Assembly (NCBI GenBank): GCA_018334075.1
Contig: JAGXSC010000034.1
Span: 1 to 37,514 of the forward strand
DNA length: 37,514 bases
Reading direction: 5' to 3'
From: Actinomycetota bacterium
GTDB taxonomy: Bacteria; Actinomycetota; Coriobacteriia; Anaerosomatales; UBA912
The notes beneath the pieces are model-generated. The model was not told where the DNA came from, searched no databases, and was given only the letters and a program-made list of their open reading frames with translations. How positions within the stretch are numbered: position 1 is the first letter of the stretch; each line of letters starts with the position of its first letter. This document shows positions 15,284 to 33,360 of this stretch, piece by piece. The translations under genes were made by a program, and so were the position numbers.

Positions 15284-15323
15284 CGCGGGCCCGGGAATGC
15301 TCTCGGGCCCGCGACGCATTTTT
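15284..15323 (+). terminator. Rho-independent terminator after the giant cytochrome
   Basis: CGCGGGCCCG at 15284-15293 pairs perfectly with CGGGCCCGCG at 15304-15313, with a further possible G-T and G-C pair inside and a six-base loop. Five T residues follow at 15319-15323. This should separate the cytochrome transcript from the TPR gene downstream. Confidence 0.78.
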
Positions 15324-15378
15324 CGGCAGTAGAATTGCTGTATCATGTCAGGTGAAAATTCGCCTATCAGGAGCTTTG

Positions 15379-16104
15379 ATGCCTTCCAGCAAGGAACAAG
15401 GTCTTAATCACAGTGCCACGCCTTTTGACCGTGCGTCGATGACTTTGGCCGGCGGACTGCTCGTGGTCGTTTTGGTCGCGGCTATTTCGCTTGTTTTATA
15501 TACCCAGGGCCTTGATGCCCCACGAACCGCGCTCGAGCGCAACATCATGAAGCATCGCGCCGCTATTGACGCAAATCCATCCGACCTGTCTAATCATCTG
15601 CTCTTGGCCTCGTCTTACACCACCGCCGGCCGCAAGGATGACGCGCTTTATATTGTGCGCCGTGCTCGCGCTCTCTCAGATTCAGCGATAGTTGATCTGA
15701 CAGAGGCGGAGGTGTTGCGATTATCCGGATCTCTCCAGGAGGCCCTGCCTCTTTACGATGCCGCTATAAGCGATGCGCAGGTCGAATATGAGCAGCTGCT
15801 GGTTGACTTGAGAGGACGCACGGTGGCTTTTGAGCCGCCAAATACGCTGCTAGCTCGTGCCCTGCAAGGCCGGGGGATCGCGCTAGGGGAGCTGGGGCAA
15901 ACGGAAAAGTCTATCGAGGATCTGGCGAAAGCGAATGAAATCCTGCCATCGGATGCCACGATCCTTGTGGCTCTCGGTGATCAGCTCGGAAAATCCGGCG
16001 ATGCCACCGGCGCGGCTGAGGCTTACCGCACGGCGCTACGCTTCGTTCCGGACTATCAAGGTGCTCGTGAGGGCTTAGAGCGCCTGGAAGGGGGCAACCA
16101 GTAG
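15379..16104 (+). CDS. Membrane-anchored TPR protein, cassette A
   Basis: A 241-residue protein with a single N-terminal membrane helix (MTLAGGLLVVVLVAAISLVL) and an outward TPR domain. Repeats are seen at NPSDLSNHLLLASSYTTAGR, at ALQGRGIALGELGQTEKSIE, and at DATGAAEAYRTALRFVPDYQ. A GTG at 15352 is in frame, but ATG 15379 has AGGAG at 15369-15373 five bases ahead, so I use it. The stop overlaps the GTG start of the NHL gene (TAGTG), so the two are coupled. The protein is a paralogue of the TPR protein at 29807: both share an anchor, then a pattern like NPxDxxxxLxLxxxYxxAGR, and end AEAYRTAL / AEERYRLAL. TPR domains bind proteins; with NHL and cytochrome genes alongside, an assembly or scaffold role is likely (inference). 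Confidence 0.87.
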   Translation: MPSSKEQGLNHSATPFDRASMTLAGGLLVVVLVAAISLVLYTQGLDAPRTALERNIMKHRAAIDANPSDLSNHLLLASSYTTAGRKDDALYIVRRARALSDSAIVDLTEAEVLRLSGSLQEALPLYDAAISDAQVEYEQLLVDLRGRTVAFEPPNTLLARALQGRGIALGELGQTEKSIEDLAKANEILPSDATILVALGDQLGKSGDATGAAEAYRTALRFVPDYQGAREGLERLEGGNQ

Positions 16105-17270
16105 TGCGCCGCGTGTCACCGATGATCCCGAGAGTATTTTTTGGCGCCGCTATAGTTGTGCTAATCGGCGTTTTGGCATTTCTTGCTGTGGTCTTTACGC
16201 GCTTGCAAGCCCCTCCGGTGGAGCTGCGGCCCGATAGGGCGGGCATGCAGTGGGTTCGATCACTGTACGGCTTTGGACCGGCGGCGGAAGAGCAGCTTCG
16301 GCATCCTTATTCTGTCGCCATCGATCCTGATGGCAGGATTTACGCAGCTGAACCTGCTGGCGCCAGGATAATGGTTTTTTCGCCATATGGTCGGTTCGAG
16401 CGTGTGTTGAGCGGAGGTGATCTGCAGCCCGGCCAGGGCGGCTTTGCGCAGCCTGAGGCGATAGATGTCAATCGTAATGGTGAACTTTTTATCGCTGACA
16501 GTCAGGATCGGAAGATCGTTGCCTTTGGCAGTGATGGCGAATTTCTTAGGGAGTGGCGTGTCGATTACATGCCACGCGGCATAGCGGTATCCGCCGGCAG
16601 TGTCTACGTGTTGGGCGAGGGAACGGTCAATATATACTCAGAGGTCGGCGCAAAAACAGGGCAGTTTGGGACCCGTGGCCCCAACCCCGGTCAGATCGAT
16701 GCCTACATCGGCATCGAGGTCTTCAGGGATACCATCTTTATCGCGGATGCGTTCAACCGCCGCATTCAGGCGTTCGACAGAGCCGGAAACTTGTTGTGGG
16801 CCCGTCCCCAGCGCGCAGAGCCACGATCGCCGATGGCGACCCCGACTGCCGAGCCCGCTAGTTTTGCGTGGGATCTGCCGCAGGATTTGGTTGTGGATGG
16901 TGCGGGACGACTCGTCGTTGTGGACGCATTTCTCTTCCAGCTGGTGGTGCTCGACCCTGAAAGCGGGGAGATACTGTCGGTGCATGGAGATTTCGGCCAA
17001 CAGGAGAGCACCTTTATCCATCCTTCGTCGGTGGAGTACGATCCGCAGCGTGACTGGTTCGCTGTTGCCGACACCGATAACAACAGAGTGCAGATCGTTC
17101 GACTTCCAGGTTCGGGAGACGATCTGACCGCAGGTGTTCGGCGCTTGGCTGACTCGACCGCCAGGTGGGTCGTTCCAACGATGCTGGCGCTCATCTTGGT
17201 GCTGCTTGTGGCCCTGATGCAGTGGTTCAGGGTGGCTAGGCTACTACGGATTCAGGACGCTGATCTTTGA
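16104..17270 (+). CDS. Membrane-anchored NHL-repeat beta-propeller, cassette A
   Basis: A 388-residue protein with an N-terminal membrane helix (VFFGAAIVVLIGVLAFLAVV) and NHL repeats through most of its length, for example YSVAIDPDGRIYAAEPAGAR, IDVNRNGELFIADSQDRKIV and VADTDNNRVQIVRLPG. A second membrane helix (VVPTMLALILVLLVALMQWF) lies near the C-terminus, followed by a short basic tail. The propeller should sit outside the membrane between the two anchors. GTG 16104 overlaps the TPR stop; an ATG at 16122 is a possible alternative. NHL propellers usually mediate protein binding and have no catalytic signature here. It pairs with the paralogous NHL protein at 30460, which lacks the second helix. 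A 116-base gap leads to the hexahaem cytochrome. Confidence 0.88.
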   Translation: MRRVSPMIPRVFFGAAIVVLIGVLAFLAVVFTRLQAPPVELRPDRAGMQWVRSLYGFGPAAEEQLRHPYSVAIDPDGRIYAAEPAGARIMVFSPYGRFERVLSGGDLQPGQGGFAQPEAIDVNRNGELFIADSQDRKIVAFGSDGEFLREWRVDYMPRGIAVSAGSVYVLGEGTVNIYSEVGAKTGQFGTRGPNPGQIDAYIGIEVFRDTIFIADAFNRRIQAFDRAGNLLWARPQRAEPRSPMATPTAEPASFAWDLPQDLVVDGAGRLVVVDAFLFQLVVLDPESGEILSVHGDFGQQESTFIHPSSVEYDPQRDWFAVADTDNNRVQIVRLPGSGDDLTAGVRRLADSTARWVVPTMLALILVLLVALMQWFRVARLLRIQDADL

Positions 17271-17386
17271 TTTGATACTTAGCGCGAGAAAAAAAGACGC
17301 TGTTTGCTTTGCCAGCAATTTACTGTAAGATTACTTAACGGCGGGTCGAAACGCTTAGCTCAAAGGTCGGTCTTCGCCGGGTCGGA

Positions 17387-18337
17387 TTGGTGGGGATATT
17401 GGGTATTGATTTTTCCATAGCGCGCAAGGCGTTGCTCACAGGCATCGTATGTGCGTCGCTATTCCTGGGCGCAGCCTCCTCGGCGATGGCTACGTTCACT
17501 CCCACCTGGCAAGGCTTCGGAAGTACCCCCGGTTGGTATGACTGGTCAGTAGTTTCCACATTGCCAGGCAACGTAGGGCAAACCTCTCCTCACGGTGGGT
17601 ACAGTACCGCCACCGCAAAGTGTCGTGTCTGCCATTCGGTTCATGCCGCAAGCACAGTTTTGGGGAGCGAGTTGCTTCTCCCGACCAGCGTGCGTGACTC
17701 ATGCGCCTACTGCCATCTCAGGTCTGGCTCGGGCTATACGCAAGTTTATGGCGGAGACATCAACAATTACTCCGGCACAAATCTGCCGAACGCTCATAAC
17801 ACTTGGATAGCTGGCGGCGTTGAGCAAGGGGTTACCTGCACGATGTGCCACCAAGTGCATGCTGCTCAGAATCGCATGACTCAAAACGCCTCATTGACGC
17901 AGAGCCTGCTTATAAACTGGGTGATCTACGATCCGGCGGCTGGGGCGCCGCTGGCGGCCGATTCCAGGGAAATGGCGCTCACCAGATGGTGTGCGGGCTG
18001 TCACTTTAACCTGCCACCGGGCACATCATTTTTTGCTACCGAATATGACATGGGAACACACATAATGGGTCCAGCCCGAGCTAATTATGCAAATCCGGCT
18101 GCCAGTTTCACGGGAAGAGTGGCATGGCGCGACTCGACCTACTGTATGTCTTGCCATTCAAGCGATTATGGAGTTCCTGGAGGCTGGCCGCACATGACCG
18201 CCGGCGTGAGGTTTCTCGAGTCCGCGACCTCTGCCGCGGGCGTGACGATGCCGGCAAGTATCCCTACCCAGGATGGCATATGCCTGAGGTGTCATAGGGA
18301 CGGCACCGGAACCGCCGGTGTGGGAATCAGCTACTAG
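17387..18337 (+). CDS. Secreted hexahaem c-type cytochrome, cassette A
   Basis: A 316-residue exported cytochrome with a signal peptide ending near SSAMA. It has six CX2CH motifs: CRVCH, CAYCH, CTMCH, CAGCH, CMSCH and CLRCH. Outside these there are exactly six other histidines (SPHGGY, SVHAA, NAHNTW, QVHAA, GTHIMG, WPHMTA), enough for bis-histidine ligation of all six haems. The start is uncertain: TTG 17387, GTG 17390 and TTG 17399 are all in frame and none has a strong ribosome site. It is a clear paralogue of the heptahaem protein at 31619: PHGGYSTATAKCRVCH aligns with PHGGYSTGTQKCQTCH and the later motifs keep order. Low helix propensity and Gly/Ser/Thr-rich linkers suit an extended haem chain. 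It overlaps the convergent small gene by 4 bases. Confidence 0.9.
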   Translation: MVGILGIDFSIARKALLTGIVCASLFLGAASSAMATFTPTWQGFGSTPGWYDWSVVSTLPGNVGQTSPHGGYSTATAKCRVCHSVHAASTVLGSELLLPTSVRDSCAYCHLRSGSGYTQVYGGDINNYSGTNLPNAHNTWIAGGVEQGVTCTMCHQVHAAQNRMTQNASLTQSLLINWVIYDPAAGAPLAADSREMALTRWCAGCHFNLPPGTSFFATEYDMGTHIMGPARANYANPAASFTGRVAWRDSTYCMSCHSSDYGVPGGWPHMTAGVRFLESATSAAGVTMPASIPTQDGICLRCHRDGTGTAGVGISY

Positions 18338-18519
18338 TCAGCGTCGTCCCTGCCGAGATCGCTTTCACTCCTGCTTGCTCCGGGTGACGCGAGGGCCATG
18401 AGGATCACAGCCAAAAGCAGCCCTAAGGCCACCACGACCAATACAACCACAAGCGTTTCCTGGATGTTGTCGGCCGGATAGGCCAAGGCGTGCAGCGAAC
18501 GATCTATCGTATCTTCCAT
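18334..18519 (-). CDS. Small single-pass membrane protein, unknown function
   Basis: A 61-residue protein from ATG 18519. The reading frame extends to 18594, but GAGGAGAG lies 6 bases before the internal ATG, a strong reason to choose it. An amphipathic N-terminal stretch (MEDTIDRSLHALAYPADN) is followed by one membrane helix (TLVVVLVVVALGLLLAVILM) and a charged tail. I recognise no family. It runs opposite to its neighbours, its stop overlaps the end of the hexahaem cytochrome gene, and it diverges from the 18663 gene across a 143-base region holding an inverted repeat. It could be a small subunit or regulator of a membrane complex; nothing shows which. Confidence 0.6.
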   Translation of the reverse strand: MEDTIDRSLHALAYPADNIQETLVVVLVVVALGLLLAVILMALASPGASRSESDLGRDDAD

Positions 18520-18563
18520 TCTGTGCTCTCCTCGCCGCGTAAAGGCACCTGGCATGCTATCAT

Positions 18564-18594
18564 ATGAGTAATTAGTGTGTGATTTATCACTCAT
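18564..18594. promoter_or_regulatory. Inverted repeat in divergent intergenic region, possible operator
   Basis: ATGAGTAAT (18564-18572) matches the reverse complement of ATCACTCAT (18586-18594) at 8 of 9 bases. Inside, GTGAT-TT-ATCAC at 18579-18590 is itself palindromic. The element sits between the divergent 61-aa gene and the 18663 gene in an AT-rich stretch containing CATAAT at 18592-18597, a possible -10 for the plus strand. It could be a shared operator. It is not a standard FNR site, because the half-sites are only two bases apart. Confidence 0.35.
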
Positions 18595-18662
18595 AATCTA
18601 ATTTCAGCCGATAATACATTAATATGTTCGTAGGCTTTTGTCTCGATATTTGAGAGGAACCG

Positions 18663-19343
18663 GTGAGAATGCGACACGTTCTTGGTTCGATTCCTGTCCG
18701 TGTGGGACTTGCGCTTCTTGCAACCGCAGGGCTGGTTTTTGGGATTCTCACCATAAGCGTTGGCCCAGACCCCTCGCGATGGATTTCAGAGCTCTCTGAG
18801 CTCGGCGGTGCGCCTGAAGACGGCGCCAGACTGGTGCGTGTTTCCGGAGAATCCGATGGACGGGCTATTACTGACGGGGACGGCCCCGCTGATGATGCCG
18901 GTGCGCCCGCTGACGCTGCGGACCCCCAGGCACCAGGCGCTCCCGCAGGTAATGGTGGCGCTGCTCAGCCCGGTACGCCAGCCACGCCGACCGCTCCCAA
19001 TGCGAATGTGAACACAGTTCGCTTGATATGGTGGAACGACACAGACGCGAGCCCTCCTTCACGCCTTGAGCTGGTGTTGGCGTCTTCCGAGTGGCGCCCA
19101 GATAATTCCAGGGCCGCGAGTCAGACCGGCACGCTGGCCAGGATACCTGTCGGCGAGCGGCTCATGCTACAGGTGTTTCCTGATGGGAGGAACGGAAAGA
19201 GAATCGACGTTCCCGTAAAGATCACCGCCGAGATGATCGAAAACTCCGAGGAAGACGCCATTCACGTAGCGATATCGGACACAACGGTTCGCGTCGTAGG
19301 TACGCCGGTAGTCGAATTTGATGTTTCAAGCGCTCGACGCTGA
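18663..19343 (+). CDS. Membrane-anchored protein with Ala/Pro-rich linker, unknown function
   Basis: A 226-residue protein I do not recognise. One N-terminal membrane helix or uncleaved signal (VGLALLATAGLVFGILTISV) is followed by an acidic stretch, then a low-complexity linker of Ala, Asp, Gly and Pro (about residues 75-118) of the kind that spans the cell wall. A compact C-terminal domain of about 105 residues follows. It starts near VRLIWWNDTD, is predicted mostly beta, and contains ERLMLQVFPDGRNGKRIDV. GTG 18663 has GAGAGGA a few bases upstream. The next gene (the CWB2 wall protein) starts 8 bases after the stop, so both are likely one operon and the protein probably works at the wall. 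No cysteines or catalytic motif are evident. Confidence 0.75.
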   Translation: MRMRHVLGSIPVRVGLALLATAGLVFGILTISVGPDPSRWISELSELGGAPEDGARLVRVSGESDGRAITDGDGPADDAGAPADAADPQAPGAPAGNGGAAQPGTPATPTAPNANVNTVRLIWWNDTDASPPSRLELVLASSEWRPDNSRAASQTGTLARIPVGERLMLQVFPDGRNGKRIDVPVKITAEMIENSEEDAIHVAISDTTVRVVGTPVVEFDVSSARR

Positions 19344-19351
19344 GAGATTAT

Positions 19352-22300
19352 ATGGATAGTGTGAGGTTCTGTTTTAGGCGTCGCACGGGGGCAGTTTTGG
19401 TGCTGCTCCTTTTGTTTGCCATTCAATCTCTGGCCACCCCTCACCACTCGATGGCCTCGCTGCCGGGCGCTTACTACTCGGTCTGGATGGGACCAAGGCC
19501 CTATGGCGGTTTTGCCGACCCGCTATCCGCAAGCGTAGATTCTCTCGGCAACATATATGTGGCTGACACTCAGAATCACAGGATCAAGAAGCTTTCGCCT
19601 TCGGGTCAGGTACTTGAGGTCTGGGGATCAAGGGGCAGTGAGCCGGGGCGTTTTGAGTTCCCTTCAGGGGTAGCTGCTTCGGCGGATGGCCGCGTCTTTG
19701 TTGCCGATTCCGGTAATAACAGGGTGCAGATATTTGACACTACTGGAACGGTATTGGGCCAGTGGACAAGCGCAGGCGCTTCACCAATGTTCTTTCCAAC
19801 CGGTATGGCTGTCGACTCTTTTGGTGCCGTGTACGTCAGCGATACCATGAATCACCGGATTCTGAAGTTTTCATCCACAGGTCAACTGATCACGATTATT
19901 GGAGGACCCGGCATAGGTAACGGCCAGTTTAGTTCCCCGCATGGCTTGGCGGTGGATGACGCCCATCTGTATGTTGCCGATACCAATAATCAGCGGATAC
20001 AAAAATTCACCCTTGGCGGCGCGTATGTCGCACAGTGGGGCTGGATGGAGATAAGCACGGGAACTTTTTCGCGCTACGGAAGCCCGTTCGGGATCGCGGT
20101 GGCGGGCCCGGATCTCATACTCGTCTCAGATAGGGGCGGGATGCGGAATCCACCACTTAGCGGTCCAGTAAGGCACCTGGAGCGTTCCACGAAAAGCGGC
20201 TCATCGCCTGTGCAGTGGGGGGAGACGGGTGACGGCGCCGGGCAATACCGGATGCCGGGAGCCATCGTGGCAAGGCCCGGCGGTGGCACTTACGTCGTGG
20301 ATTCCGGAAACAATCGCATACAGCTACTTGACCCAGCATGGCAAAGTACGGAGATATGGTCCGGCGCTGGATCGGCGCCAGGGGAACTAAGTGCGCCGTC
20401 CTCGGCGAAAGTAGGACCTGGCGGTCTTATCTACGTCGCGGACACGGGAAACAATCGTATTCAAGTCTTCAATGCCGACAGAACCTATCTAAGTCACTTT
20501 GGCGGCTCCGGCATCAACTCAAGTCCCGCTGATATCGCGATCGCCGCGAACGGGGATGTGTGGGTGGCAGACTCGGGGGCGGCCTCCCCGGTGGCGAGAT
20601 TTTCCGCTGAGGGCGCGTTTCTCGGCGCTATCGGAGCAGGACAGCTAAGCGCGCCTCAAGGTGTTGCCATAGACGCCGATGGCGATATATGGGTCGCGGA
20701 TACCGGCGGAGCGCGTCTGAGGGAGTTTTCGCAGCAAGGCACGGTATTGCGGACGATACAGACGTTTACTGGCTCTACGGCCGGCCTCAGCTCGCCGGTG
20801 GACGTTGAGGTCGATGCCGCGGGGCGTTTGTGGGTTGTCGACCGCGACGCTGCCAGAGTTTTCGTGCTGGAGCCCACTGGCGCACTTGTTACGTCCTTTG
20901 GCGGACTTGGAGAATCAGCCGGCCAGTTCCGTCTTCCGATGGGTCTGGCGATAAGCCCGGCTGGACATGTTTATGTAAGCGATGGCGCGAATGGACGGGT
21001 ACAACGATTTTCCTCGGCTGGCATCTGGGAGAGCACGATCGGCTCGGCAGGCGCCGGGCCTGGCCAGGTGAGACGGCCGATGCGACCTACGGTGCTGCCC
21101 GATGGGATGCTGCTTGTGCCTGAGCGTGACAACCACCGGCTGCACTTGTTTGCGCATGATGCTACACCTCCCGTCACGACGGCGAGCGGGATTCCAGGAA
21201 TGTTGACCAATCGGGATGCGACTATCACGCTTTCCGCCGAGGATGCCGTCTCCGGCGTCGCTACGACCTTCTACAGGATCGGCTCCGGTTCGGAGATGGC
21301 GTACACTCAACCTTTTACGATCGACTACGATTTCGAAGGGTTCGTTCGATTTTGGTCGATTGACCGGGTGGGCAACACGGAAGCCGTAAATATCCAGCGG
21401 GTGCGCATCGACAAGACACCTCCGACCGGGACATTCGTCTTGAACGGGGGCGCGCAGTTTGCTACCACGTCCACCGTTGTCGCCAGCTCCACGATTACAG
21501 GCGCAAACGAGGTGCGTTTTAACGCCGGCTTCGGGTTCGAGTGGGGTCCGCTCTGGCCTTCGCAATCCCTCCTACTTCCGGGTGAGGGCGTTAGAGAGGT
21601 GCATGCTCAATACCGTGACGCGGCGGGTAACATACTGTCGCTTTCCGACACAATCACGGTCGATTGGACGCCTCCTGCTACAACCGCGCATGGCATCCCT
21701 GAGGGCCCGGTCGCTCACTCTGTCTCCATCTCACTTACGGCGACAGATGCGGTAAGCGGGGTAGCCTCGACCTTCTACAGAGTCGGTGACGCGGCTCTCG
21801 CCCCTTATCTTCCCGGCCAGACGATTACGATCGATGCGCAAGGCGAGACGCTTGTGCAGTGGTACTCGATCGACCGGGCGGGCAACACGGAGGCGACAGC
21901 CTCTGCTACAGTCAAGATCACCCCACCAGCAAAAGTGCCTGCTGAGATAACACGAATCGACGGCCCCAATCGCTATCAGACCGCGCTTGCAGTCTCTAGG
22001 AGGATGTTCTCCCAGGCAGCGACTGTGGTGATATCCACAGGAGAGTCTTTCCCGGACGCGCTTGCCGCCTCTTCTCTGGCAGGGGCGCTAAACGCACCGG
22101 TAATACTCACGTTGCCTAGTAGGCTTCCAACCGGGACCGTTGAAGAGATAAAAAGGCTCGATGCCAAGCACGTGTTTGTAATTGGCGGCAAGGGGGCGGT
22201 GCACGATACCGTCTTGGACGAATTAAGGGCCACCGGACTCTCGGTGACGCGTATAGGAGGCAGGGATCGTTTTGCGACTGCGGCTCAAGTGTCCGCCAAA

Positions 22301-22876
22301 ACTGTCGCAATACGCGGAAACGTAGCCTATCCGGAGACGGTATTCATAGTGCGTGGCGATGATTTTGCTGACGCTGTTTCGGCTTCCTCGGCGGCCTGGG
22401 CAAGTAAAATACCGATACTGCTTGTCATGCCTAGCGCTATACCTTCCGCGACTTCAGAGGCAATAACCAGTCAAGGATTCTCAAGGGCTATCGTGGTTGG
22501 CGGCTCCGGCGCGGTTAGCGATGGTGTAGCGGGTAAGATCAGAACTCTCGGGCTCAACACGGTAACCCGTGTGGGGGGGCCTGACCGGTATGTCACGTCA
22601 GCCGAGTTCGCCAAGTGGGCGCACAGAGAATCGATTCTCGGCTTTGAGAATGTGGGACTTGCGACAGGAGCGCGGTTCCCGGACGCTCTTTCCGGCGGCG
22701 CTGGTATGGGCGCGAGGGGTGGAGTGCTGCTGTTGACCAGGGCAGAAGCGCTTCCGGACGCCGTGCGCGGGACACTCGAGATCTTTTCCGCCGATATAAA
22801 ACGGATTGCGGTTTTTGGGGGAAAGAGTGCGGTCGAAGAGAGTGTCGTGCATTCGGTCTCGGTAACGTTGCAGTGA
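19352..22876 (+). CDS. Wall-anchored NHL-propeller protein with Ig-like and three CWB2 repeats
   Basis: A 1174-residue exported protein. A signal peptide (RRRTGAVLVLLLLFAIQSLA) is followed by a long NHL region (about 36-600) with repeats such as VADTQNHRIKKLSPSG, VADSGNNRVQIFDTTG and VADTGNNRIQVFNADR, enough for two propellers. Next come three Ig-like/OmpL47-type modules (about 604-860), two opening TPPVTTASGIP and WTPPATTAHGIP and containing SIDRVGNTEA / SIDRAGNTEA. The end (about 865-1174) is three cell-wall-binding-2 repeats, each with RxGGxDRYxTA-like and VIGGxGAV-like blocks; the first reads ITRIDGPNRYQTALAVSRR. CWB2 triplets bind secondary wall polymers in Gram-positive bacteria, so this protein displays NHL propellers on the outer wall. 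It is probably cotranscribed with 18663. The NHL part suggests it docks the same partners as the two membrane NHL proteins (inference). Confidence 0.92.
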   Translation: MDSVRFCFRRRTGAVLVLLLLFAIQSLATPHHSMASLPGAYYSVWMGPRPYGGFADPLSASVDSLGNIYVADTQNHRIKKLSPSGQVLEVWGSRGSEPGRFEFPSGVAASADGRVFVADSGNNRVQIFDTTGTVLGQWTSAGASPMFFPTGMAVDSFGAVYVSDTMNHRILKFSSTGQLITIIGGPGIGNGQFSSPHGLAVDDAHLYVADTNNQRIQKFTLGGAYVAQWGWMEISTGTFSRYGSPFGIAVAGPDLILVSDRGGMRNPPLSGPVRHLERSTKSGSSPVQWGETGDGAGQYRMPGAIVARPGGGTYVVDSGNNRIQLLDPAWQSTEIWSGAGSAPGELSAPSSAKVGPGGLIYVADTGNNRIQVFNADRTYLSHFGGSGINSSPADIAIAANGDVWVADSGAASPVARFSAEGAFLGAIGAGQLSAPQGVAIDADGDIWVADTGGARLREFSQQGTVLRTIQTFTGSTAGLSSPVDVEVDAAGRLWVVDRDAARVFVLEPTGALVTSFGGLGESAGQFRLPMGLAISPAGHVYVSDGANGRVQRFSSAGIWESTIGSAGAGPGQVRRPMRPTVLPDGMLLVPERDNHRLHLFAHDATPPVTTASGIPGMLTNRDATITLSAEDAVSGVATTFYRIGSGSEMAYTQPFTIDYDFEGFVRFWSIDRVGNTEAVNIQRVRIDKTPPTGTFVLNGGAQFATTSTVVASSTITGANEVRFNAGFGFEWGPLWPSQSLLLPGEGVREVHAQYRDAAGNILSLSDTITVDWTPPATTAHGIPEGPVAHSVSISLTATDAVSGVASTFYRVGDAALAPYLPGQTITIDAQGETLVQWYSIDRAGNTEATASATVKITPPAKVPAEITRIDGPNRYQTALAVSRRMFSQAATVVISTGESFPDALAASSLAGALNAPVILTLPSRLPTGTVEEIKRLDAKHVFVIGGKGAVHDTVLDELRATGLSVTRIGGRDRFATAAQVSAKTVAIRGNVAYPETVFIVRGDDFADAVSASSAAWASKIPILLVMPSAIPSATSEAITSQGFSRAIVVGGSGAVSDGVAGKIRTLGLNTVTRVGGPDRYVTSAEFAKWAHRESILGFENVGLATGARFPDALSGGAGMGARGGVLLLTRAEALPDAVRGTLEIFSADIKRIAVFGGKSAVEESVVHSVSVTLQ

Positions 22877-22970
22877 CCTTGTCTGAAAATCTCTCTGCTA
22901 TTTCGCTTTGTTCAGGCAAAATGTAGTTGGTGTATTGGCTGTTGTCGTGCAAAGGGATGGTATACGAAAT

Positions 22971-24368: not shown

Positions 24369-24378
24369 GGCGAAACTG

Positions 24379-25521: not shown

Positions 25522-26930
25522 AGCGTGGGCACTTCATAGTTCTCTCGCTGCTGCTTGATGCATTGCTCATCAACGTCGGAATCGTCGCCTCGTTCTTCTT
25601 GAGGTTCGGTGGCACGCTGCCTGCGTTCAACTTCGAGCCATTTATCGTGCTGGCACCCTTCATTACGCTGTTGTACCTGGGGTGCGGATATATATACGGA
25701 CTCTATGAGCCCGAGCGGACAGAGTATCCCTGGGCGGTTGTGCGCGCTGTCTTTGCGGCCGCGACGCTCGGGACTGCCCTTACGGCAGCACTTCTCTTCT
25801 TTGCCGGCCCCGAGTTCTTCTCTTTTTCGCGTCTTGTGATCCTGATCAGTTGGCTGGTGATCGGGATCCTGCTCATCGGGTGGCGAATTCTCTTCCTTCA
25901 GGTGAGCACGATAACGTGGCCGCAGCAGCGGATAGTTATCGTTGGTACCGGTGACTTGGCGCTAGAGCTAGCTTCCGAGCTGGAGGAAAGGGGTCGGTGG
26001 GGCTATCAGGTTGTGGGGCTGCTGGAGACAAGCGCAAATGGTGCTTCGGCACCAGTGCATGCGCAAAGTGCGAACACAGGCTCCTCGGCAGGAGCGCCTG
26101 TCGGCAAAGAGTTTGCGGTGCTGGGCCGCCTTGATGAAATCGCTGAGATCGTGCAGAGGGAAAGCGTGGATCGCGTGATCGTGGTTTCACCCGTGGCCCT
26201 GCGCGATCTTATTGAAAGACTAGCCCTTGCTGATGAAATTAATGTGCGCGTGGATGTGGTGCCGGAGCTCTACGAGATATTCATAGGCACCGTTGACGGC
26301 CTCGTGGCAGATATCCCGTTGATGGAGATCACCCGAAGCTCACCGCCGAGGTGGGTTTTGTTTGTCAAGCGAGCTGTCGATGTTATCGGCGCCTTGCTCT
26401 TGCTGCTAGTGCTCCTTCCGCTGCTGGCGATCACGGCCCTGGCGATCCTTGTTACGATGGGTTGGCCGATATTGTATTCGCAGAGGCGTACGGGCAAGGA
26501 TATGCGGGAGTTTCGCCTATACAAGTTTCGCACGATGGTTCGGGAGGCCGAGAGTACCACCGGGCCGGTGCTCGCGGCCGAGTGCGATGCCCGGGTAACA
26601 CCCCTGGGCAGGATCTTGCGCACCTACCGGATCGACGAACTGCCGCAGCTTATCAATATTTTGCTTGGGCATATGAGCTTTGTGGGCCCTCGGCCGGAGC
26701 GCCCGTTCTTTGTAAGGAGGTATGTCGAAGAGATACCTGGTTATCGCGAGCGCTTCAAGGTCGCGCCAGGAGTTACAGGATTAGCGCAGGTAAGCGGTGG
26801 ATATGCGACAACCACCGAACGCAAGCTAAAATACGATCTCATTTACATGTATCATCATGATTTGTCGATGGACATCCAGATTTTAGTTGAAACCGTGCGC
26901 GTGATCTTGACCGGTCGCGGCGCAAGATAG
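25518..26930 (+). CDS. Polyprenyl-phosphate hexose-1-phosphate transferase (WbaP/CpsE type)
   Basis: A 470-residue membrane enzyme of the exopolysaccharide polyprenyl glycosylphosphotransferase family. Four or so N-terminal helices (about 1-125) are followed by a CoA-binding-like Rossmann domain starting IVIVGTGDLALELASELEER. The catalytic bacterial sugar transferase domain begins near 283 with KRAVDVIGALLLL. Signature blocks there include YKFRTMV, RTYRIDELPQLINILLGHMS, VGPRPERP and PGVTGLAQVSG; the acidic pair in RIDELPQ is catalytic in the family. It transfers sugar-1-phosphate from an NDP-sugar to undecaprenyl phosphate, the committed step of repeat-unit assembly. GTG 25518 overlaps the GT4 stop (GTGA). 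A low-complexity insert (about 171-195) between the domains is unusual but probably harmless. Confidence 0.93.
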   Translation: MKRGHFIVLSLLLDALLINVGIVASFFLRFGGTLPAFNFEPFIVLAPFITLLYLGCGYIYGLYEPERTEYPWAVVRAVFAAATLGTALTAALLFFAGPEFFSFSRLVILISWLVIGILLIGWRILFLQVSTITWPQQRIVIVGTGDLALELASELEERGRWGYQVVGLLETSANGASAPVHAQSANTGSSAGAPVGKEFAVLGRLDEIAEIVQRESVDRVIVVSPVALRDLIERLALADEINVRVDVVPELYEIFIGTVDGLVADIPLMEITRSSPPRWVLFVKRAVDVIGALLLLLVLLPLLAITALAILVTMGWPILYSQRRTGKDMREFRLYKFRTMVREAESTTGPVLAAECDARVTPLGRILRTYRIDELPQLINILLGHMSFVGPRPERPFFVRRYVEEIPGYRERFKVAPGVTGLAQVSGGYATTTERKLKYDLIYMYHHDLSMDIQILVETVRVILTGRGAR

Positions 26931-26942
26931 GAGCTAGCAGAA

Positions 26943-29138
26943 GTGGGAAAGCGCAGGAAAAACGTAGCAGGCGTGGAACCGAAAACCGCCCGCGGCAAAT
27001 CCCAAGGAGTGTCAAGTAATCAACCAGACGCAAGTCTCATGTTGAGCGCGTCGACGCTGGGTGGCATGACCACACCACAAAAGGTTGCCTGGTACGCCCT
27101 GCTGGCACTTGTCTTTTGTGTACCGCTCGCGACAAGCAACTGGACTTGGCTAGGGATTAGCATACCGTTTACTTTCGATCAGTTTGACCTCGTCAAGGTG
27201 TTTGTCATGCGGGCATGTTTGCTTGTTGGATTAGCCGCATGGGCTTGGCACATACTTTTTTATGGAGGAAAAATCCGCAGAACCAAGGCGGATTATCTGA
27301 TTCTCGTGTTCCTAGGGTGGGTGTTTTTGACAACATTGACCTCGATCCATCCAGAGACGGCATTTTTCGGGAAGTACCGCCGCTATGAGGGGCTAATGTC
27401 GTTTATCACGTACGGCGGTGTGTTTTTCCTGGCCACGCAGCTGCTCGATAGGACAGCAAGGATAAGGGCGCTTGCCAAGACATTCTTCTTCTCGGCGGTA
27501 GGCGTCAACGGCTACGGGGTTCTGCAAAGCCTGGGGATGGACCCGAATAGGTGGGGACAGCTTCCTTTCGAGGCAAACCGTGCGTTCTCGACGTTTGGCA
27601 ACCCCGATCTTCTCGGCGGATTTATCGTGTTTTCGCTGGCGGTTTCACTGGGACTTGCGCTTAGTGAGAATCGTCCGGGCTGGAGAGCGGTATGGTGGGC
27701 CGGTTTTCTGATCGCGGTTTGGTGCTGGATAGCCGCTTTCACTAGAGGTGCGTGGATCGGCGGCTCTGTTGCGCTGTTGATAATAATTGCAGTTGCGATC
27801 ACCCAGAAGGTCAAACTCAAGCGCACCGACGGTATATTTGCTGGAGCTATTGGTATATTGGTCGCGGCACTTGTCTCGCTGAGCCTGCGTTCAGAAAATC
27901 CCGTGATGAACGTATGGCTGAGGCTCAAGTCCATATTCGAGTTTGACGCCGGAAGCGCCGAGACTCGGTTCCAAATATGGCAAGCTGCGCTAACAGCCAT
28001 ACAGGAACGGCCGATTTTAGGGTATGGAGCTGATACATTTCGTCTCCACTTCCCGAGATATAAGCCGCTTGAGTATGTCGCGGATGCCGGCTACCTATCG
28101 GTTGCTGATAACGCTCATAACTATCCCCTGCAGATGGCTTCGGCTCTTGGGATTCCAGGGTTTTTGTTGCTCTACGGGCTCTTTATTTTTGTCGCGATCG
28201 CTACGGCCTCGTTCATATTCAAACGCACCAGCGGCTCCGTTGGAGACAAGCTTATCTTGGCGGGCATGTGGGCGGGGTGTGCTGGCTATCTGACTCACAT
28301 GAACTTTGGATTGGCGGTAACTGGCACCGCAGTTTTCATGTGGGTGTTTATGGCGGCACTGATGGCGCCAACCGCTCGCTTTGTCGAGGTAAAACCTCAG
28401 TCGGGGGCGCTGGTGGGCGCAGTTGCCGCAACGGTTCTGGCAGCGGCGCTTTTAATCTTCAACTTCACTCATGTGATTGCCGATAATTATCACCTCAGGG
28501 CCAGTGTGATGTCTCAGGGTTTTGATAGAGTGCGTTACGCTGAGGCAGCGGTAAGACTCAACCCCTTCAACGACCAATACCGCACCGAGCTTGCAATGGC
28601 GCATCTCGATATCTTTGTCACCTATTTGCCTGCACTACAGGCAGGGGACGATAGCCCCGAGGCGCTTGCCGTTCGTGCGCAGGCAGAGCAGCAGTTCCGT
28701 ACCACCGAACGAGCCATGCTCGATGCGATAGAGTTCTCACCTTGGGAGTTTGATAACTACGTATTTCTTACAAACCTGTATGTGGCTGGCGGCGAGTTTC
28801 TTGATCGCAGACACTTTGAAAGCGCTATATATTGGGGCAGAAAGGGAGTCGATGAAAGACACTTCATCTATGGCCCCGCACTACGGCTTCAGTTGGCCAG
28901 AGCACTCTATGCAACAGGTGACGTGCAGGCCGCTTACGATGAGATAAGTTTTGCGGCTTCGATGGACCCCAACTTCTCGCAAGCCCACTTCTTCCATGCA
29001 GTCATCGCGGAAAGCAGAGGTGATCTTGTGTCGGCGCGTAAGGCTTTGACTCAGGTCCTGCTTGTTCAGCCTGATTTTCCGACAGCCGCTGATTTCCTGG
29101 CCAGAGTCGAGTCAGCTGCAGCCGCAACTTCAAATTGA
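26943..29138 (+). CDS. O-antigen ligase/polymerase family protein with C-terminal TPR region
   Basis: A 731-residue protein. After about 35 hydrophilic residues come about 12 membrane helices, with the Wzy/O-antigen ligase features FGNPDLLGGFIVFSLAVSLG, then CWIAAFTRGAWIGGSVALL, and the late loop SVADNAHNYPLQMASALGIP. The outer loop contains RFQIWQAALTAIQERPILGY, typical of the family. From about 520 a soluble tail has TPR-like helices (VRLNPFNDQYRTELAMAHL, AASMDPNFSQAHFFHAVIAE). GTG 26943 has AGGAG upstream. The enzyme joins or polymerises undecaprenyl-linked glycan on the outer face. Without evidence of lipid A, the acceptor may be a wall polymer or a protein rather than LPS. The rex gene follows after 27 bases on the same strand. 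Confidence 0.88.
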   Translation: MGKRRKNVAGVEPKTARGKSQGVSSNQPDASLMLSASTLGGMTTPQKVAWYALLALVFCVPLATSNWTWLGISIPFTFDQFDLVKVFVMRACLLVGLAAWAWHILFYGGKIRRTKADYLILVFLGWVFLTTLTSIHPETAFFGKYRRYEGLMSFITYGGVFFLATQLLDRTARIRALAKTFFFSAVGVNGYGVLQSLGMDPNRWGQLPFEANRAFSTFGNPDLLGGFIVFSLAVSLGLALSENRPGWRAVWWAGFLIAVWCWIAAFTRGAWIGGSVALLIIIAVAITQKVKLKRTDGIFAGAIGILVAALVSLSLRSENPVMNVWLRLKSIFEFDAGSAETRFQIWQAALTAIQERPILGYGADTFRLHFPRYKPLEYVADAGYLSVADNAHNYPLQMASALGIPGFLLLYGLFIFVAIATASFIFKRTSGSVGDKLILAGMWAGCAGYLTHMNFGLAVTGTAVFMWVFMAALMAPTARFVEVKPQSGALVGAVAATVLAAALLIFNFTHVIADNYHLRASVMSQGFDRVRYAEAAVRLNPFNDQYRTELAMAHLDIFVTYLPALQAGDDSPEALAVRAQAEQQFRTTERAMLDAIEFSPWEFDNYVFLTNLYVAGGEFLDRRHFESAIYWGRKGVDERHFIYGPALRLQLARALYATGDVQAAYDEISFAASMDPNFSQAHFFHAVIAESRGDLVSARKALTQVLLVQPDFPTAADFLARVESAAAATSN

Positions 29139-29165
29139 GAGAGTTATCTGAAACGGAGAGATAGA

Positions 29166-29807
29166 ATGTCACCACAGCAACCCAGCATCCCTCCGGCAAC
29201 AGTTCAGAGGCTCCCTTTGTACTTGCGCTGCCTTGTGCAGCTCCAATCACAGCGGTTGGATATCGCCAACTCCGTCAAGATAGCCGAAGTGGCGGGCACG
29301 AACGCTGCGCAGGTTCGCAAGGATCTGTCGTATCTCGGCGAATTTGGTATCCGCGGACTTGGGTACGAGGTGAATGGGCTTATCGCCCATCTCACACGAT
29401 GGCTTGGACTTCAGGCTACTCGAAATGTGGTGATTATCGGCCATGGGCGGCTCGGTGCCGCGCTGCAAGGCTACGGCGGTTTGCAGGACCGAGGCTTTTT
29501 GGTCCGCGCGATTCTGGATATAGACCCCGAAAAGATCGGGACAGCCTTGCCCGGGGGGTTACAGGTGGAGCCGTTAGAAAGACTTGCGGATATCGCCAGG
29601 GAGCGCGAGATCGAGATTGCGATCTTGACAGTACCGGTCAACCAAGCCGAAAGAGTGGCTCGTGATGTTGTTGCCGCGGGAATCAGGGCGATTCTCAACT
29701 TTGCGCCGGTGCGGCTTGACCTTCCCGAGGGTGTACGTGTGCGTCAGGCCGATGTGGCAGCAGAGTTGCAGATTCTCTCTTACCATTTACGTGAGGAGTC
29801 TTTGTAG
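29166..29807 (+). CDS. rex: Redox-sensing transcriptional repressor Rex
   Basis: A 213-residue Rex. The N-terminal winged helix starts IPPATVQRLPLYLRCLVQL and includes the recognition region TNAAQVRKDLSYLGEFGIRG. The Rossmann domain begins NVVIIGHGRLGAAL (glycine loop about 92-97) with the acidic strand end in AILDIDPEKIG. The C-terminus has VPVNQAERVARDVVAAGI and ILNFAPVRLDLPEGVRV, typical of Rex. It binds NADH or NAD+ and represses anaerobic/fermentative or respiratory genes when NADH is low. ATG 29166 has GGAGAG upstream. Unusually it lies inside an apparent operon, 27 bases after the O-antigen ligase gene, with its stop overlapping the TPR gene start (TAGTG). I see no Rex-like operator directly before it; a candidate lies at 35629. 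Confidence 0.95.
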   Translation: MSPQQPSIPPATVQRLPLYLRCLVQLQSQRLDIANSVKIAEVAGTNAAQVRKDLSYLGEFGIRGLGYEVNGLIAHLTRWLGLQATRNVVIIGHGRLGAALQGYGGLQDRGFLVRAILDIDPEKIGTALPGGLQVEPLERLADIAREREIEIAILTVPVNQAERVARDVVAAGIRAILNFAPVRLDLPEGVRVRQADVAAELQILSYHLREESL

Positions 29808-30463
29808 TGACTGGTTTCGGTTATGACTTGAAGGATGGAAGCCGAGTTCCGGCCTGGTTGGCGGTAACCGTTGTTGTGCTGCTGCTCGGAGTCGTGGGGT
29901 CCGCGGGTTATATCATCAACGACCTTCTTTCTCCGTCCTCGCAACCCACCGCAATAGATAAGGAGATTGCTAGCAATAAAGAGGCGGTCGAACGCAATCC
30001 GGATGACATAGAGTCACTTCTTGCTTTGGGGCACGCTTATCAGAGAGCAGGTCGTTTTCGGGAAGCACTCCGACTTTACGATCAGGTATTGAATTTGCGG
30101 CCCCAGGATACTGCCGCCCTTTACAACAGGGGAATTGTTCTGCTGGAGCAGGGTAGATACAGCCAGGCGGAGGTCGCATTATGGGATGTCCTCGAGCGAG
30201 ATCGTGAGCATGCACTGGCGGCAAAGGCGCTAGGGGAGCTCTACGCCGAGCAAGGCAAGTACCGATCGCTGATTTATACCTTAAGGCCGGTTGTAGAGGA
30301 GAATGAAGCCTCTGCAGATCTGCAGTATCTGATGGGCCTGGCCTATGAGAATCTTGGCGAAGGAGATCTCGCGGAGGAGCGCTACCGGTTGGCCCTAAAA
30401 TATTTTCCAGATATGCCTGAGGCTAGAGAAGCACTGGACCGGCTGGGCGTAGTGATCGAGTGA
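29807..30463 (+). CDS. Membrane-anchored TPR protein, cassette B
   Basis: A 218-residue protein with one N-terminal membrane helix (WLAVTVVVLLLGVVGSAGYI) and at least four TPR units, including NPDDIESLLALGHAYQRAGR, AALYNRGIVLLEQGRYSQAE and ADLQYLMGLAYENLGEGDLA. GTG 29807 overlaps the rex stop by one base, with GAGGAG nine bases ahead; the NHL gene start overlaps its stop by four. It is a paralogue of 15379-16104 with the same order of anchor, helical linker and TPRs and the same closing pattern (AEERYRLALKYFPDMPEARE). The TPR face should lie outside the membrane. A role in assembling or holding the cytochromes is inferred from the repeated gene order. Confidence 0.9.
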   Translation: MTGFGYDLKDGSRVPAWLAVTVVVLLLGVVGSAGYIINDLLSPSSQPTAIDKEIASNKEAVERNPDDIESLLALGHAYQRAGRFREALRLYDQVLNLRPQDTAALYNRGIVLLEQGRYSQAEVALWDVLERDREHALAAKALGELYAEQGKYRSLIYTLRPVVEENEASADLQYLMGLAYENLGEGDLAEERYRLALKYFPDMPEAREALDRLGVVIE

Positions 30464-31527
30464 AGGGTCCTGGTGAGCCGAGCGGTTCTCGGCAGGTCTT
30501 CTCCATACTTGCCCTGGTGTTGGCTTTGGTGTTGATGGCACTGGTTGCCTATATCGTTTTGGCGATGAATGCAGATGAAGTTGATCTGGCGCCCGTTCCT
30601 CAAAAAGGAATCGTTCCGGTGCTGACCATCGATGGTCCAGGGACAGGCGATAACCCCGAGTTCTCTAAACCCCAAGGGGTGGCGTTCGCTCCCGACGGCA
30701 CTATCTATGTCGCGGACACCGGTAACAACAGGGTTTGCGTTTTTGACGAAAACGGAAGGTTCCTCTTTGAGTTCGGCGGTTTTGGTGTGGCCAAACCGGC
30801 TCCGGGTGTGATGGCGACCTGGGAGCCTGGCTTGATGAACATGCCGACAGGCATAGATGTTGCCGAGAACGGCGAAGTTTACGTTGCTGATTTCAAGAAC
30901 GACCAGATCCAGGTATTCGACTCGAAGGGCAAATTTTTGCGACGCTTCCCTGACCCGCTTGTGCGTGTGGGAAGGGGCGGATCCGGATATGGAGGTACCG
31001 GCATAGCGGTTACCGGCGTCGAAGTGATGGGCGGACTGGTCTACGCGACAGACGCTTACCAGGTCGTTGTGTTCACGACAGAAGGTGAGTTCGTGCGTCA
31101 ATTCGGCCGACCCGGAACCGGATTGGGTGAGTTGGATCGCCCCAACGGACTAGGGGTAACCAGAGACGGCATGATAGTTGTTGCGGACTCTAACAACAAT
31201 CGCGTTCAGGCACTTGCAAGCGATGGAGGGCCGCAATGGGTCACAGGCGAACCCATCGTCGAGCTGGATGAGCGCGTTGATAATGAGTTCGGATTACCAA
31301 GAGACGTGGCGATTACCGACGACGGTTCTATTCTGGTGGTAGACACGTTTGAGTTTGAGATAGTCGAGCTTGATCGCACAGGCAATGTGATAAACAGGCT
31401 CGGCGAGCGCGGTGTCAACCCCGGGCAGTTTAATTTTCCTGACGCAATAGATGCGCTCGGTGAGAGAGTTCTGATTGCCGACAGAGGCAACAACAGGGTG
31501 CAGGTAGTGGAAATCGCAGGCAGATAG
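30460..31527 (+). CDS. Membrane-anchored NHL-repeat beta-propeller, cassette B
   Basis: A 355-residue protein with an N-terminal membrane helix (VFSILALVLALVLMALVAYI) and about six NHL repeats, for example VAFAPDGTIYVADTGNNRVC, IDVAENGEVYVADFKNDQIQ and VTRDGMIVVADSNNNRVQ, ending VLIADRGNNRVQVVEIAGR. Six repeats suit one complete propeller outside the membrane. Unlike its paralogue at 16104 it lacks a C-terminal helix. GTG 30460 overlaps the TPR stop (GTGA), so TPR and NHL are made together as in cassette A. A 91-base gap with a possible promoter leads to the heptahaem cytochrome. No catalytic residues are evident; protein binding is the known use of the fold. Confidence 0.92.
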   Translation: MKGPGEPSGSRQVFSILALVLALVLMALVAYIVLAMNADEVDLAPVPQKGIVPVLTIDGPGTGDNPEFSKPQGVAFAPDGTIYVADTGNNRVCVFDENGRFLFEFGGFGVAKPAPGVMATWEPGLMNMPTGIDVAENGEVYVADFKNDQIQVFDSKGKFLRRFPDPLVRVGRGGSGYGGTGIAVTGVEVMGGLVYATDAYQVVVFTTEGEFVRQFGRPGTGLGELDRPNGLGVTRDGMIVVADSNNNRVQALASDGGPQWVTGEPIVELDERVDNEFGLPRDVAITDDGSILVVDTFEFEIVELDRTGNVINRLGERGVNPGQFNFPDAIDALGERVLIADRGNNRVQVVEIAGR

Positions 31528-31535
31528 CTGCGTGG

Positions 31536-31564
31536 TTGCTCATGAAGGTTCATTCAGGTAACAT
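31536..31564 (+). promoter_or_regulatory. Possible promoter of the heptahaem cytochrome gene
   Basis: TTGCTC (31536-31541) and TAACAT (31559-31564) are 17 bases apart, each matching 4 of 6 sigma-70/SigA consensus positions, in the only gap between the NHL gene and the cytochrome. It could give the cytochrome extra transcription beyond operon read-through. Confidence 0.35.
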
Positions 31565-31618
31565 TTGATCAGTGTCATGGAGCTGGTGCAGGGCATCTTC
31601 GTCCGCATTTGTTTGTGA

Positions 31619-32722
31619 TTGGCGGTTCAGTTGACTTTGGGGATCAGAGCGGCAAGACTCACACTACTGTGCGCATTGTCCATGGTGATCTTCTCTACCC
31701 CTGCGCTCGCTTACGACGAGACGATTCCCCCCACAGGCAGGACTTGCTCTGAGTGTCACGGATTGGATGAAACTGAGACGACCGGAACCGTGCAGGCGAT
31801 AAGGCCGAGAAAAGGACCGCACGGGGGATACTCGACCGGAACGCAGAAGTGCCAGACATGCCATACTATACACGGTGCGCCATTTGGCAGCATTATGCTG
31901 CTGTCGGCCGCTACGATTCGCGACACTTGTATGACATGCCATGATGGGACCGGCGGTAGAGGCGTATACGGAACCCTCGTGGCGAGAGGGCTCGAGGTGT
32001 CGTCCGCTCATAGGATAGAGTTTACTAATTCTGTACCCGGTGGCGCCCTTACCGGAGGGGCGGAAACAAAGACCTTTCTTGCCAGTGGCGGCTTGCTTAC
32101 ATGCAGCGATTGTCACAGTCCACATGGAACCGATACAGTCCAACCGTTCACTGGAGACCGTGTTCGCATTTCCACACCCCAGGCTTTTCCCGCAACGCAT
32201 CCCGCGGATGTCGTGAAGACCGACCGGCTTCTCAAGAGACGACCAACCACGGCGACTCAATCCGTTGATGTTTATGGTTCCGAGTGGTGCGGTGCTTGCC
32301 ATGTGGGCAGGATGTCCGGCTCGGCAGGGGTAGTCAATCATCCGGTGTCAACCCAAACTATCGGAGTCCACTACGACAGGATCGTTCGCGTCCGCTCCGC
32401 CAATACCACATCGGTAGAGTGGGGATCCTTGGGCGGCTCGAACCGGGGATATGTGATGCCTACGGCAACCGCCACCCCGCCACGGCAGCCCCCCATTTGT
32501 CAGCAGTGCCATGAGGACGCGCGTTCGGTAGGAAACGACCCGGCCAGGCGCCAGCAGATCTCCACCCTGGGTGGTTTCAATGAGGAGTTTCGGGTTACCG
32601 CCGCCGATGGCGCAGTGGCAACAGACAACCCAAGGTTTCAGGTGTTTCCACACGAATCGGCGACCCCTAGGCTGCTTATCGAAACTGGCAACAGCTTATG
32701 CTTGAACTGCCATGACGCCTGA
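31619..32722 (+). CDS. Secreted heptahaem c-type cytochrome, cassette B
   Basis: A 367-residue exported cytochrome with a signal peptide (LTLLCALSMVIFSTPALA) and seven CX2CH motifs: CSECH, CQTCH, CMTCH, CSDCH, CGACH, CQQCH and CLNCH. Eight further histidines can supply distal ligands. Six motifs align in order with the hexahaem protein at 17387, including PHGGYST before motif 2 and RDTCMTCH against RDSCAYCH; the first, CSECH, is extra. The start is TTG 31619 or TTG 31631; both precede the signal peptide and neither has a strong ribosome site. Long glycine/serine/threonine-rich linkers suggest an extended structure. It should lie outside the membrane and pass electrons between the anchored 15-haem protein and the exterior (inference). 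Confidence 0.92.
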   Translation: MAVQLTLGIRAARLTLLCALSMVIFSTPALAYDETIPPTGRTCSECHGLDETETTGTVQAIRPRKGPHGGYSTGTQKCQTCHTIHGAPFGSIMLLSAATIRDTCMTCHDGTGGRGVYGTLVARGLEVSSAHRIEFTNSVPGGALTGGAETKTFLASGGLLTCSDCHSPHGTDTVQPFTGDRVRISTPQAFPATHPADVVKTDRLLKRRPTTATQSVDVYGSEWCGACHVGRMSGSAGVVNHPVSTQTIGVHYDRIVRVRSANTTSVEWGSLGGSNRGYVMPTATATPPRQPPICQQCHEDARSVGNDPARRQQISTLGGFNEEFRVTAADGAVATDNPRFQVFPHESATPRLLIETGNSLCLNCHDA

Positions 32723-33356: not shown

Positions 33357-33360
33357 AGTC

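Follow-up and report, generated by a model that had tools for sequence, protein, structure and literature searches.

A 37,514-nucleotide stretch of DNA from an actinobacterium of the order Anaerosomatales (hereafter the window; contig JAGXSC010000034.1 of assembly GCA_018334075.1) carries two trios of genes, each encoding a TPR protein, an NHL beta-propeller protein and a multihaem cytochrome c. Judging from profile alignments, the cytochromes are distant relatives of OmcS, the nanowire cytochrome of Geobacter. The TPR and NHL genes accompany such cytochromes in many genomes, and the loci with this pair show no homologues of OscD-H from the Geobacter OmcS machinery. Our preferred reading, which we hold tentatively, is that the TPR-NHL pair forms a membrane platform that assembles or anchors an electron conduit of the OmcS family in a putative monoderm, with an input enzyme feeding in the electrons. 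The organism, one of a group of subsurface bacteria, is expected to be a monoderm, that is, to possess a single membrane.

The initial annotation, made from the sequence alone, had described the two trios as sharing gene order and strand, with coupled TPR and NHL genes. This description is confirmed: the reading frames of TPR and NHL share 1 nt in trio 1 and 4 nt in trio 2, both trios lie on the same strand, and their products match the TPR, NHL and multihaem cytochrome domains of Pfam.

The cytochromes are distant relatives of OmcS

The best PDB match of the cytochrome profiles is OmcS, at 7.5e-13 with a profile of 5 sequences and at 2.8e-18 with one of 39; the next-best match is another multihaem chain, 6r2q_A (5e-11). 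The alignment with OmcS (6ef8) runs over the full length, from profile positions 42-310 on chain positions 7-406 in hmmsearch, with the six CXXCH motifs in order. When profiles were compared with profiles, the score was 207 against the hexahaem cytochromes of diderm osc loci (see below), versus 146, 81, 79 and 42 against four other multihaem families.

In a joint alignment of 39 relatives with OmcS, the histidines of all six CXXCH motifs and five of the six distal histidine columns are 97-100% His, the column of OmcS H2, which is absent from the printed alignment, having been placed by way of the diderm relatives. The family thus shares with OmcS (PDB 6ef8/6nef) the order of the six motifs and 11 of the 12 apparent ligand-histidine columns, H16 included. 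The H16 column is 100% His in the 39 family members and in 15 diderm OmcS-like proteins, although a conserved residue need not act as a ligand. We take H16, with haem 5 as its partner, to be the inter-subunit ligand of OmcS. Subunits of OmcS are joined through a histidine of the neighbouring subunit (PMC9473688, PMC12307469). It is likely that the window cytochromes are able to stack or polymerise via the conserved inter-subunit histidine.

The family departs from OmcS in its length (~270-430 aa, compared to 407 for mature OmcS) and in a very low pairwise identity. The PHGGYST sequence ahead of a haem motif and the motif RD(S/T)CxxCH, both said earlier to be common to the two window cytochromes, are found in each of them. 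Six haem motifs in order had also been claimed for both; this is exact for cytochrome 1, while cytochrome 2 has one extra, N-terminal haem before the six, making seven. None of the NCBIfam equivalogs was above its curated cutoff for the trio proteins, and only a doubled-CXXCH domain model exceeded it. Orthologues of cytochrome 2 at 65-74% identity occur in loci L092, L099 and L100. Cytochromes at ~40-46% identity to it are present in loci L014, L016-L019 and L021-L023, some in tandem and most adjoining a conserved gene of ~730 codons.

Gene order and membrane topology are conserved

The NHL profile matches 66 of the 69 genomes of the order, mostly several times each, with about five strong matches per genome. 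Eight of these genomes contain 44 anchored NHL genes; 32 of these directly follow a TPR gene, and 42 lie within 8 kb of a multihaem cytochrome gene of the same orientation. The gene next after NHL encodes a cytochrome in 30 of 51 cases, against 15 of 133 same-locus controls, and a TPR gene stands just before NHL in 34 of 53, against 8 of 298 controls. That the trio behaves as a unit, in line with the first proposal, is borne out by these multi-genome neighbourhood counts, which exceed the same-locus controls. The trio recurs in other actinobacterial classes, in Bacillota and in Chloroflexi; six TPR-NHL-cytochrome loci are found in Thermincola ferriacetica. In a sample of the phylum, 28 genomes outside the order gave strong matches, and most of the 20 loci examined showed the order TPR, NHL, six-haem cytochrome; no strong match was found in any of the 17 genomes listed from other orders of the same class. 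Genome contigs were also searched with an alignment of the cytochromes, which makes the neighbourhood test independent of NHL and TPR, and this returned 79 loci from many phyla.

An N-terminal transmembrane (TM) segment is present in 47 of 50 TPR proteins and in 49 of 50 NHL proteins, and the genes of 29 of the 50 pairs overlap or lie no more than 5 nt apart. This TM segment, the positive charges that precede it, and the order and overlap of the two genes place the TPR and NHL domains outside the cytoplasmic membrane, a topology deduced from hydropathy. Two Nitrospirae loci (L055, L088) encode, in order, a 13-haem cytochrome, two TPR proteins and an 8-haem cytochrome, with no NHL; this TPR-TPR order is a possible third arrangement.

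The module is repeated within the genome

The genome to which the window belongs (1.89 Mb, 99.7% complete) contains six TPR-NHL pairs, two in the window and four on other contigs. The window pairs do align with each other better than with a generic family member: NHL1 and NHL2 match at E=1e-32, whereas the wall-anchored NHL protein encoded from 19352 reaches 2e-19, and the alignments of the two cytochromes and of the two TPR proteins have E=2e-14 and E=1.4e-5. Nevertheless, the initial view of two diverged copies is at best incomplete, given the six pairs and the roughly five strong NHL matches per genome of the order. The duplication of a single trio was rejected in view of the six pairs and of nearest paralogues that lie outside the window. 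NHL1 has its nearest relative on contig C21 (1e-48) and NHL2 on C30 (3e-35); the two window trios are therefore members of a larger set. The nearest relative of TPR2 is likewise a copy on another contig, C33 (7e-16).

The electron-input modules differ from pair to pair. The C21 pair lies with quinol-type 12- and 11-haem cytochromes, the C71 pair with a molybdopterin oxidoreductase, an FeS protein and 20- and 7-haem cytochromes, the C33 pair with a [NiFe] hydrogenase and 20-, 12- and 7-haem cytochromes, and the C30 pair with another molybdopterin enzyme, while the pair of trio 2 is accompanied by Rex, ResBC and a 14-haem cytochrome. A PHGGYS-type cytochrome is encoded in the same cluster for five of the six pairs; on C21 its place is taken by a related 5-haem protein. 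The hydrogenase, molybdoenzyme, quinol-type and Wzy-Rex-ResBC contexts recur in other families.

The NHL protein of the hydrogenase and molybdoenzyme cassettes carries a C-terminal domain of ~110 residues past a second TM segment (L010 6403-7938, L012 7510-9003; also L115, L121, L136, L141). This domain, which has no match in Pfam, is probably cytoplasmic; by eye it resembles a PIN-like fold, and it may be a sensor.

Relation to the osc operon of Geobacter

The initial annotation knew of no named system with this composition. A close functional relative does exist, the osc (omcS companion) operon of Geobacter sulfurreducens, GSU2504-GSU2493. Within it, an eight-gene block beside an OmcS-like gene, GSU2500-2493, has been linked to the maturation and secretion of OmcS nanowires (PMC12977616). 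Folding is ascribed to OscH, secretion to OscE/F/G and morphology to OscD, and OscI and OscJ are the cytochromes GSU2495 and GSU2494 (PMC13194489); the operon as a whole is proposed to fold, secrete and shape the nanowires (PMC12977616, PMC13194489).

Locus L056, from a Geobacter metagenome-assembled genome, has the order six-haem cytochrome, YNCE-type propeller (in the OscD position), 750-residue protein, two GNA1162/CsgG-like lipoproteins, prolyl isomerase, 26-haem cytochrome, 16-haem cytochrome, NHL, six-haem cytochrome, and a further NHL gene precedes the first six-haem cytochrome. From this synteny we infer that the eighth gene of the block, GSU2493, encodes an NHL protein. An NHL gene beside an OmcS-like gene is found in diderm loci L056, L155, L048 and L053 and in monoderm loci; given the layout of the osc block in L056, this neighbour is common to diderms and monoderms. 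The two systems also have in common large multihaem cytochromes, and phmmer searches relate the 14-haem cytochrome of the window to the 26- and 16-haem cytochromes encoded at osc loci of Geobacter.

They differ in the remaining partners. The diderm NHL gene that precedes OmcS-like genes comes with osc secretion and chaperone genes and without a TPR gene. The TPR-NHL pair is present in 21 of 39 monoderm loci and in none of 32 diderm loci (p=1.3e-7; loci were labelled by phylum and are not fully independent). Conversely, the OscD-H proteins of L056 had phmmer matches in 0 of 74 loci with the TPR-NHL order, compared to 8-15 other loci; instead of OscD, OscE, the OscF/G lipoproteins and the OscH prolyl isomerase, these loci encode a membrane-anchored TPR protein. 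By eye, diderm NHL proteins have cleavable signals or lipoboxes, whereas those of monoderms have a TM anchor. Taken together, the skew towards monoderms, the lack of OscD-H homologues and the difference in anchoring are read as one purpose with two envelope-specific solutions. The shared purpose is likely to be the building of an OmcS-type chain outside the cell, and the TPR-NHL pair probably corresponds, in monoderms, to the osc machinery, standing in place of the Geobacter assembly genes.

A proposed platform for an extracellular conduit

The following scheme can be proposed. A secreted hexahaem cytochrome of the OmcS family would stack or polymerise by means of the histidine that, in OmcS, ligates the haem of the neighbour. 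The TPR and NHL proteins, presumably co-translated, would be anchored in the cytoplasmic membrane, their domains on its outer side, receive the haem-loaded cytochrome and assemble or anchor the chain at the membrane. A locus-specific input module (hydrogenase, molybdoenzyme, quinol cytochromes, or the Rex/ResBC-14-haem set) would feed electrons to this chain, which would lead them out through the wall. In diderms, a secreted or lipoprotein NHL partner would share the job with the OscE/F/G channel and the OscH chaperone; in monoderms, the TPR partner would replace these. The initial suggestion of an export or assembly platform joined to a conductive cytochrome fits both the OmcS homology and the exchange of osc genes, its assembly and polymerisation parts being deductions from them. 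A broader version, in which Actinomycetota, Bacillota and Chloroflexota build OmcS-type nanowires with a dedicated TPR and NHL machine evolved in place of the osc channel and chaperone, with several wires per genome, each tied to its own electron-donating enzyme, seems to us rather doubtful.

Several observations weigh against the platform. OmcT, OscC and OmcJ, which are relatives of OmcS, are not known to polymerise (PMC12977616), and the AlphaFold models of the two window cytochromes are of low confidence (pLDDT, the predicted local distance difference test, of 53 and 48). The sixth distal histidine, OmcS H335, is present in 59% of the relatives and in neither window cytochrome; other histidines lie nearby in both, and its role may have moved to the histidine of a WPH/FPHES sequence. 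Within the order, the cytochromes of the trio 2 type in L014, L016-L019 and L021-L023 have no TPR or NHL gene nearby, some cassettes (the C21 type) have a cytochrome of 4 or 5 haems where the OmcS-like one would be expected, and a few loci continue immediately downstream with an enzyme gene and not a cytochrome gene. Finally, TPR and NHL domains are generic scaffolds, and a wholly different role would yield the same profiles.

One such role, which we consider unlikely, is that of a chaperone for cytochrome c maturation: the TPR protein would bind the apocytochrome as CcmI and NrfG do and hand it to the ResBC haem lyase, with NHL stabilising the pair and no filament being formed. ResB and ResC are indeed encoded in the trio 2 cluster and in loci L123, L129 and L130, and a C-terminal tail, GVG(I/V/L)xY/F, found on two unrelated cytochrome types (see below) could be a tag for TPR. 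The TPR apocytochrome chaperones CcmI/CycH and NrfG are also membrane-anchored extracytoplasmic proteins encoded next to cytochrome genes. TPR2 has a weak match to TPR_CcmH_CycH (25.6 bits, 1.2e-5, below the curated cutoff of 42), and TPR1 has none. However, ResBC is missing from most cassettes, the tail is missing from the trio 2 cytochromes and most others, and a single factor should serve all cytochromes, yet one genome has six pairs. Unlike the known chaperones, the window TPR proteins are coupled to an NHL protein, and the genome holds many copies.

It is no more probable that the pair is a docking scaffold within a membrane redox complex, holding the input enzyme against its multihaem partners and having no part in assembly. 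The pair does lie beside or between large cytochrome and enzyme genes on C33, C71 and C30 and in homologous loci, and different pairs accompany different enzymes. In the cassettes of the trio 1 type and in those of Chloroflexi and Bacillota, however, it is the OmcS-like gene that adjoins the pair and no enzyme gene does, and the diderm NHL gene precedes OmcS-like genes without any TPR. Least plausible is that these common scaffolds are general surface or regulatory proteins (for mineral adhesion or sensing) that co-occur with cytochromes through shared extracellular electron transfer, as mineral binding suggested for NHL proteins beside multihaems (PMC12016550) and the Pfam-less cytoplasmic C-terminal domain of some NHL proteins might hint. 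The tight, overlapping gene arrangement, the strand and the topology are maintained in 50 pairs from three phyla, which exceeds what loose functional clustering would give.

The individual protein families are already known. In the literature searched, which did not extend to Shen 2025 and Baquero 2023, we found no account of TPR-NHL as a pair that repeatedly accompanies OmcS-family cytochromes in monoderms. Part of the trio 2 cluster appears in print as a Parvivirga hydrogeniphila cytochrome cluster (MCL4079323-32) without its TPR and NHL genes; that paper makes no mention of these genes, of a repeated cassette or of OmcS (PMC9686372). Even in Geobacter, the assembly and anchoring of OmcS-type nanowires have been called unresolved (PMC12307469). 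The essential components would be revealed by an alternative gene set that manages with two companion proteins and no outer-membrane channel and occurs several times per genome: both systems have the NHL propeller, and TPR on one side and the osc genes on the other are interchanged. The platform reading predicts OmcS-like conduits in Gram-positive subsurface lineages, each linked to a particular input enzyme.

Other features of the window

Table 1. Genes and other features of the window, in order of position
Feature	Coordinates	Strand	Description
33-haem secreted cytochrome	9856..15258	+	1800 residues, 33 CXXCH; c7/MtrC-type domains; directly upstream of trio 1
Terminator-like hairpin	15284..15313	+	13-bp stem then T-run; between 33-haem gene and trio 1
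TPR protein 1	15352..16104	+	Pfam TPR; predicted cytoplasmic N-tail, one TM helix near residue 31, extracytoplasmic TPRs
NHL beta-propeller protein 1	16104..17270	+	NHL PF01436 E=1e-12; TM helices at 11 (N-terminal) and 355 (C-terminal)
OmcS-family hexahaem cytochrome 1	17387..18337	+	Signal peptide, six CXXCH, exactly six further His
Wall-bound NHL protein	19352..22876	+	Pfam NHL 2.7e-70, three CW_binding_2 repeats (CWB2 4e-47); downstream of trio 1
Rex redox repressor	29166..29807	+	Pfam Put_DNA-bind_N and CoA_binding; 1-nt overlap with TPR 2
TPR protein 2	29807..30463	+	Pfam TPR; single N-terminal TM
NHL propeller protein 2	30460..31527	+	NHL E=1.6e-33; N-terminal TM only
OmcS-family cytochrome 2	31619..32722	+	7 CXXCH: extra N-terminal haem and six OmcS-type haems
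Small lipoprotein-like protein	32778..33356	+	Conserved within operon in L092, L099, L100, L123
ResB, cytochrome c biogenesis System II	33283..34740	+	PF05140 E=2e-30
ResC/CcsA-type haem lyase subunit	34737..35573	+	PF01578 E=1.8e-37
Membrane-anchored 14-haem cytochrome	35757..37232	+	14 CXXCH; phmmer matches to OscI/OscJ-type proteins

The features of the window are listed in Table 1. The start given for TPR 1 is the first possible codon, and the ATG at 15379 is a possible alternative. The hairpin upstream of it (z=-2.7; an equally good fold in 1 of 200 shuffles) suggests separate or attenuated transcription of the 33-haem gene relative to trio 1; an RNA element was sought in both NHL-cytochrome gaps as well, where folding was no better than in shuffles (z=1.6 and 0.1). 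The 33-haem cytochrome has a 32-haem homologue in the corresponding position of locus L096.

Upstream of trio 2, the region 26943-30463 encodes an O-antigen-ligase-like protein with C-terminal TPRs, then Rex, then TPR 2. The same order is seen throughout the family (L092, L099, L100) and in L013, L123 and L137, the position of Rex itself being kept in L092, L099, L100, L013 and L123. Given the conserved Rex-TPR 2 order, the trio 2 cassette may be under NADH/NAD control. Downstream of the trio, the small lipoprotein-like protein had no match in Pfam and NCBIfam searches, and the true start of ResB is probably downstream of 33283, because the reading frame from there overlaps the preceding gene.

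Two unrelated cytochrome types, that of trio 1 and C21 and the 14-haem type, share a C-terminal tail, G-(V/I)-G-(I/V/L)-x-(Y/F) or RVG(I/V)D(F/Y), which in the window lies at 18314-18337 (cytochrome 1) and 37209-37232 (14-haem cytochrome). It was found in 21 of 408 cytochromes, all in actinobacterial loci (e.g. L009, L013, L092, L094-L096, L099, L100, L117, L119, L122, L124, L125, L140). Confined as it is to these types, it was rejected as a universal TPR tag; it is possibly a recognition tail. Large NHL proteins near trios, like the wall-bound protein of the window, are also encoded in loci L096, L124 and L129, as if a second propeller were seated in the cell wall or S-layer.

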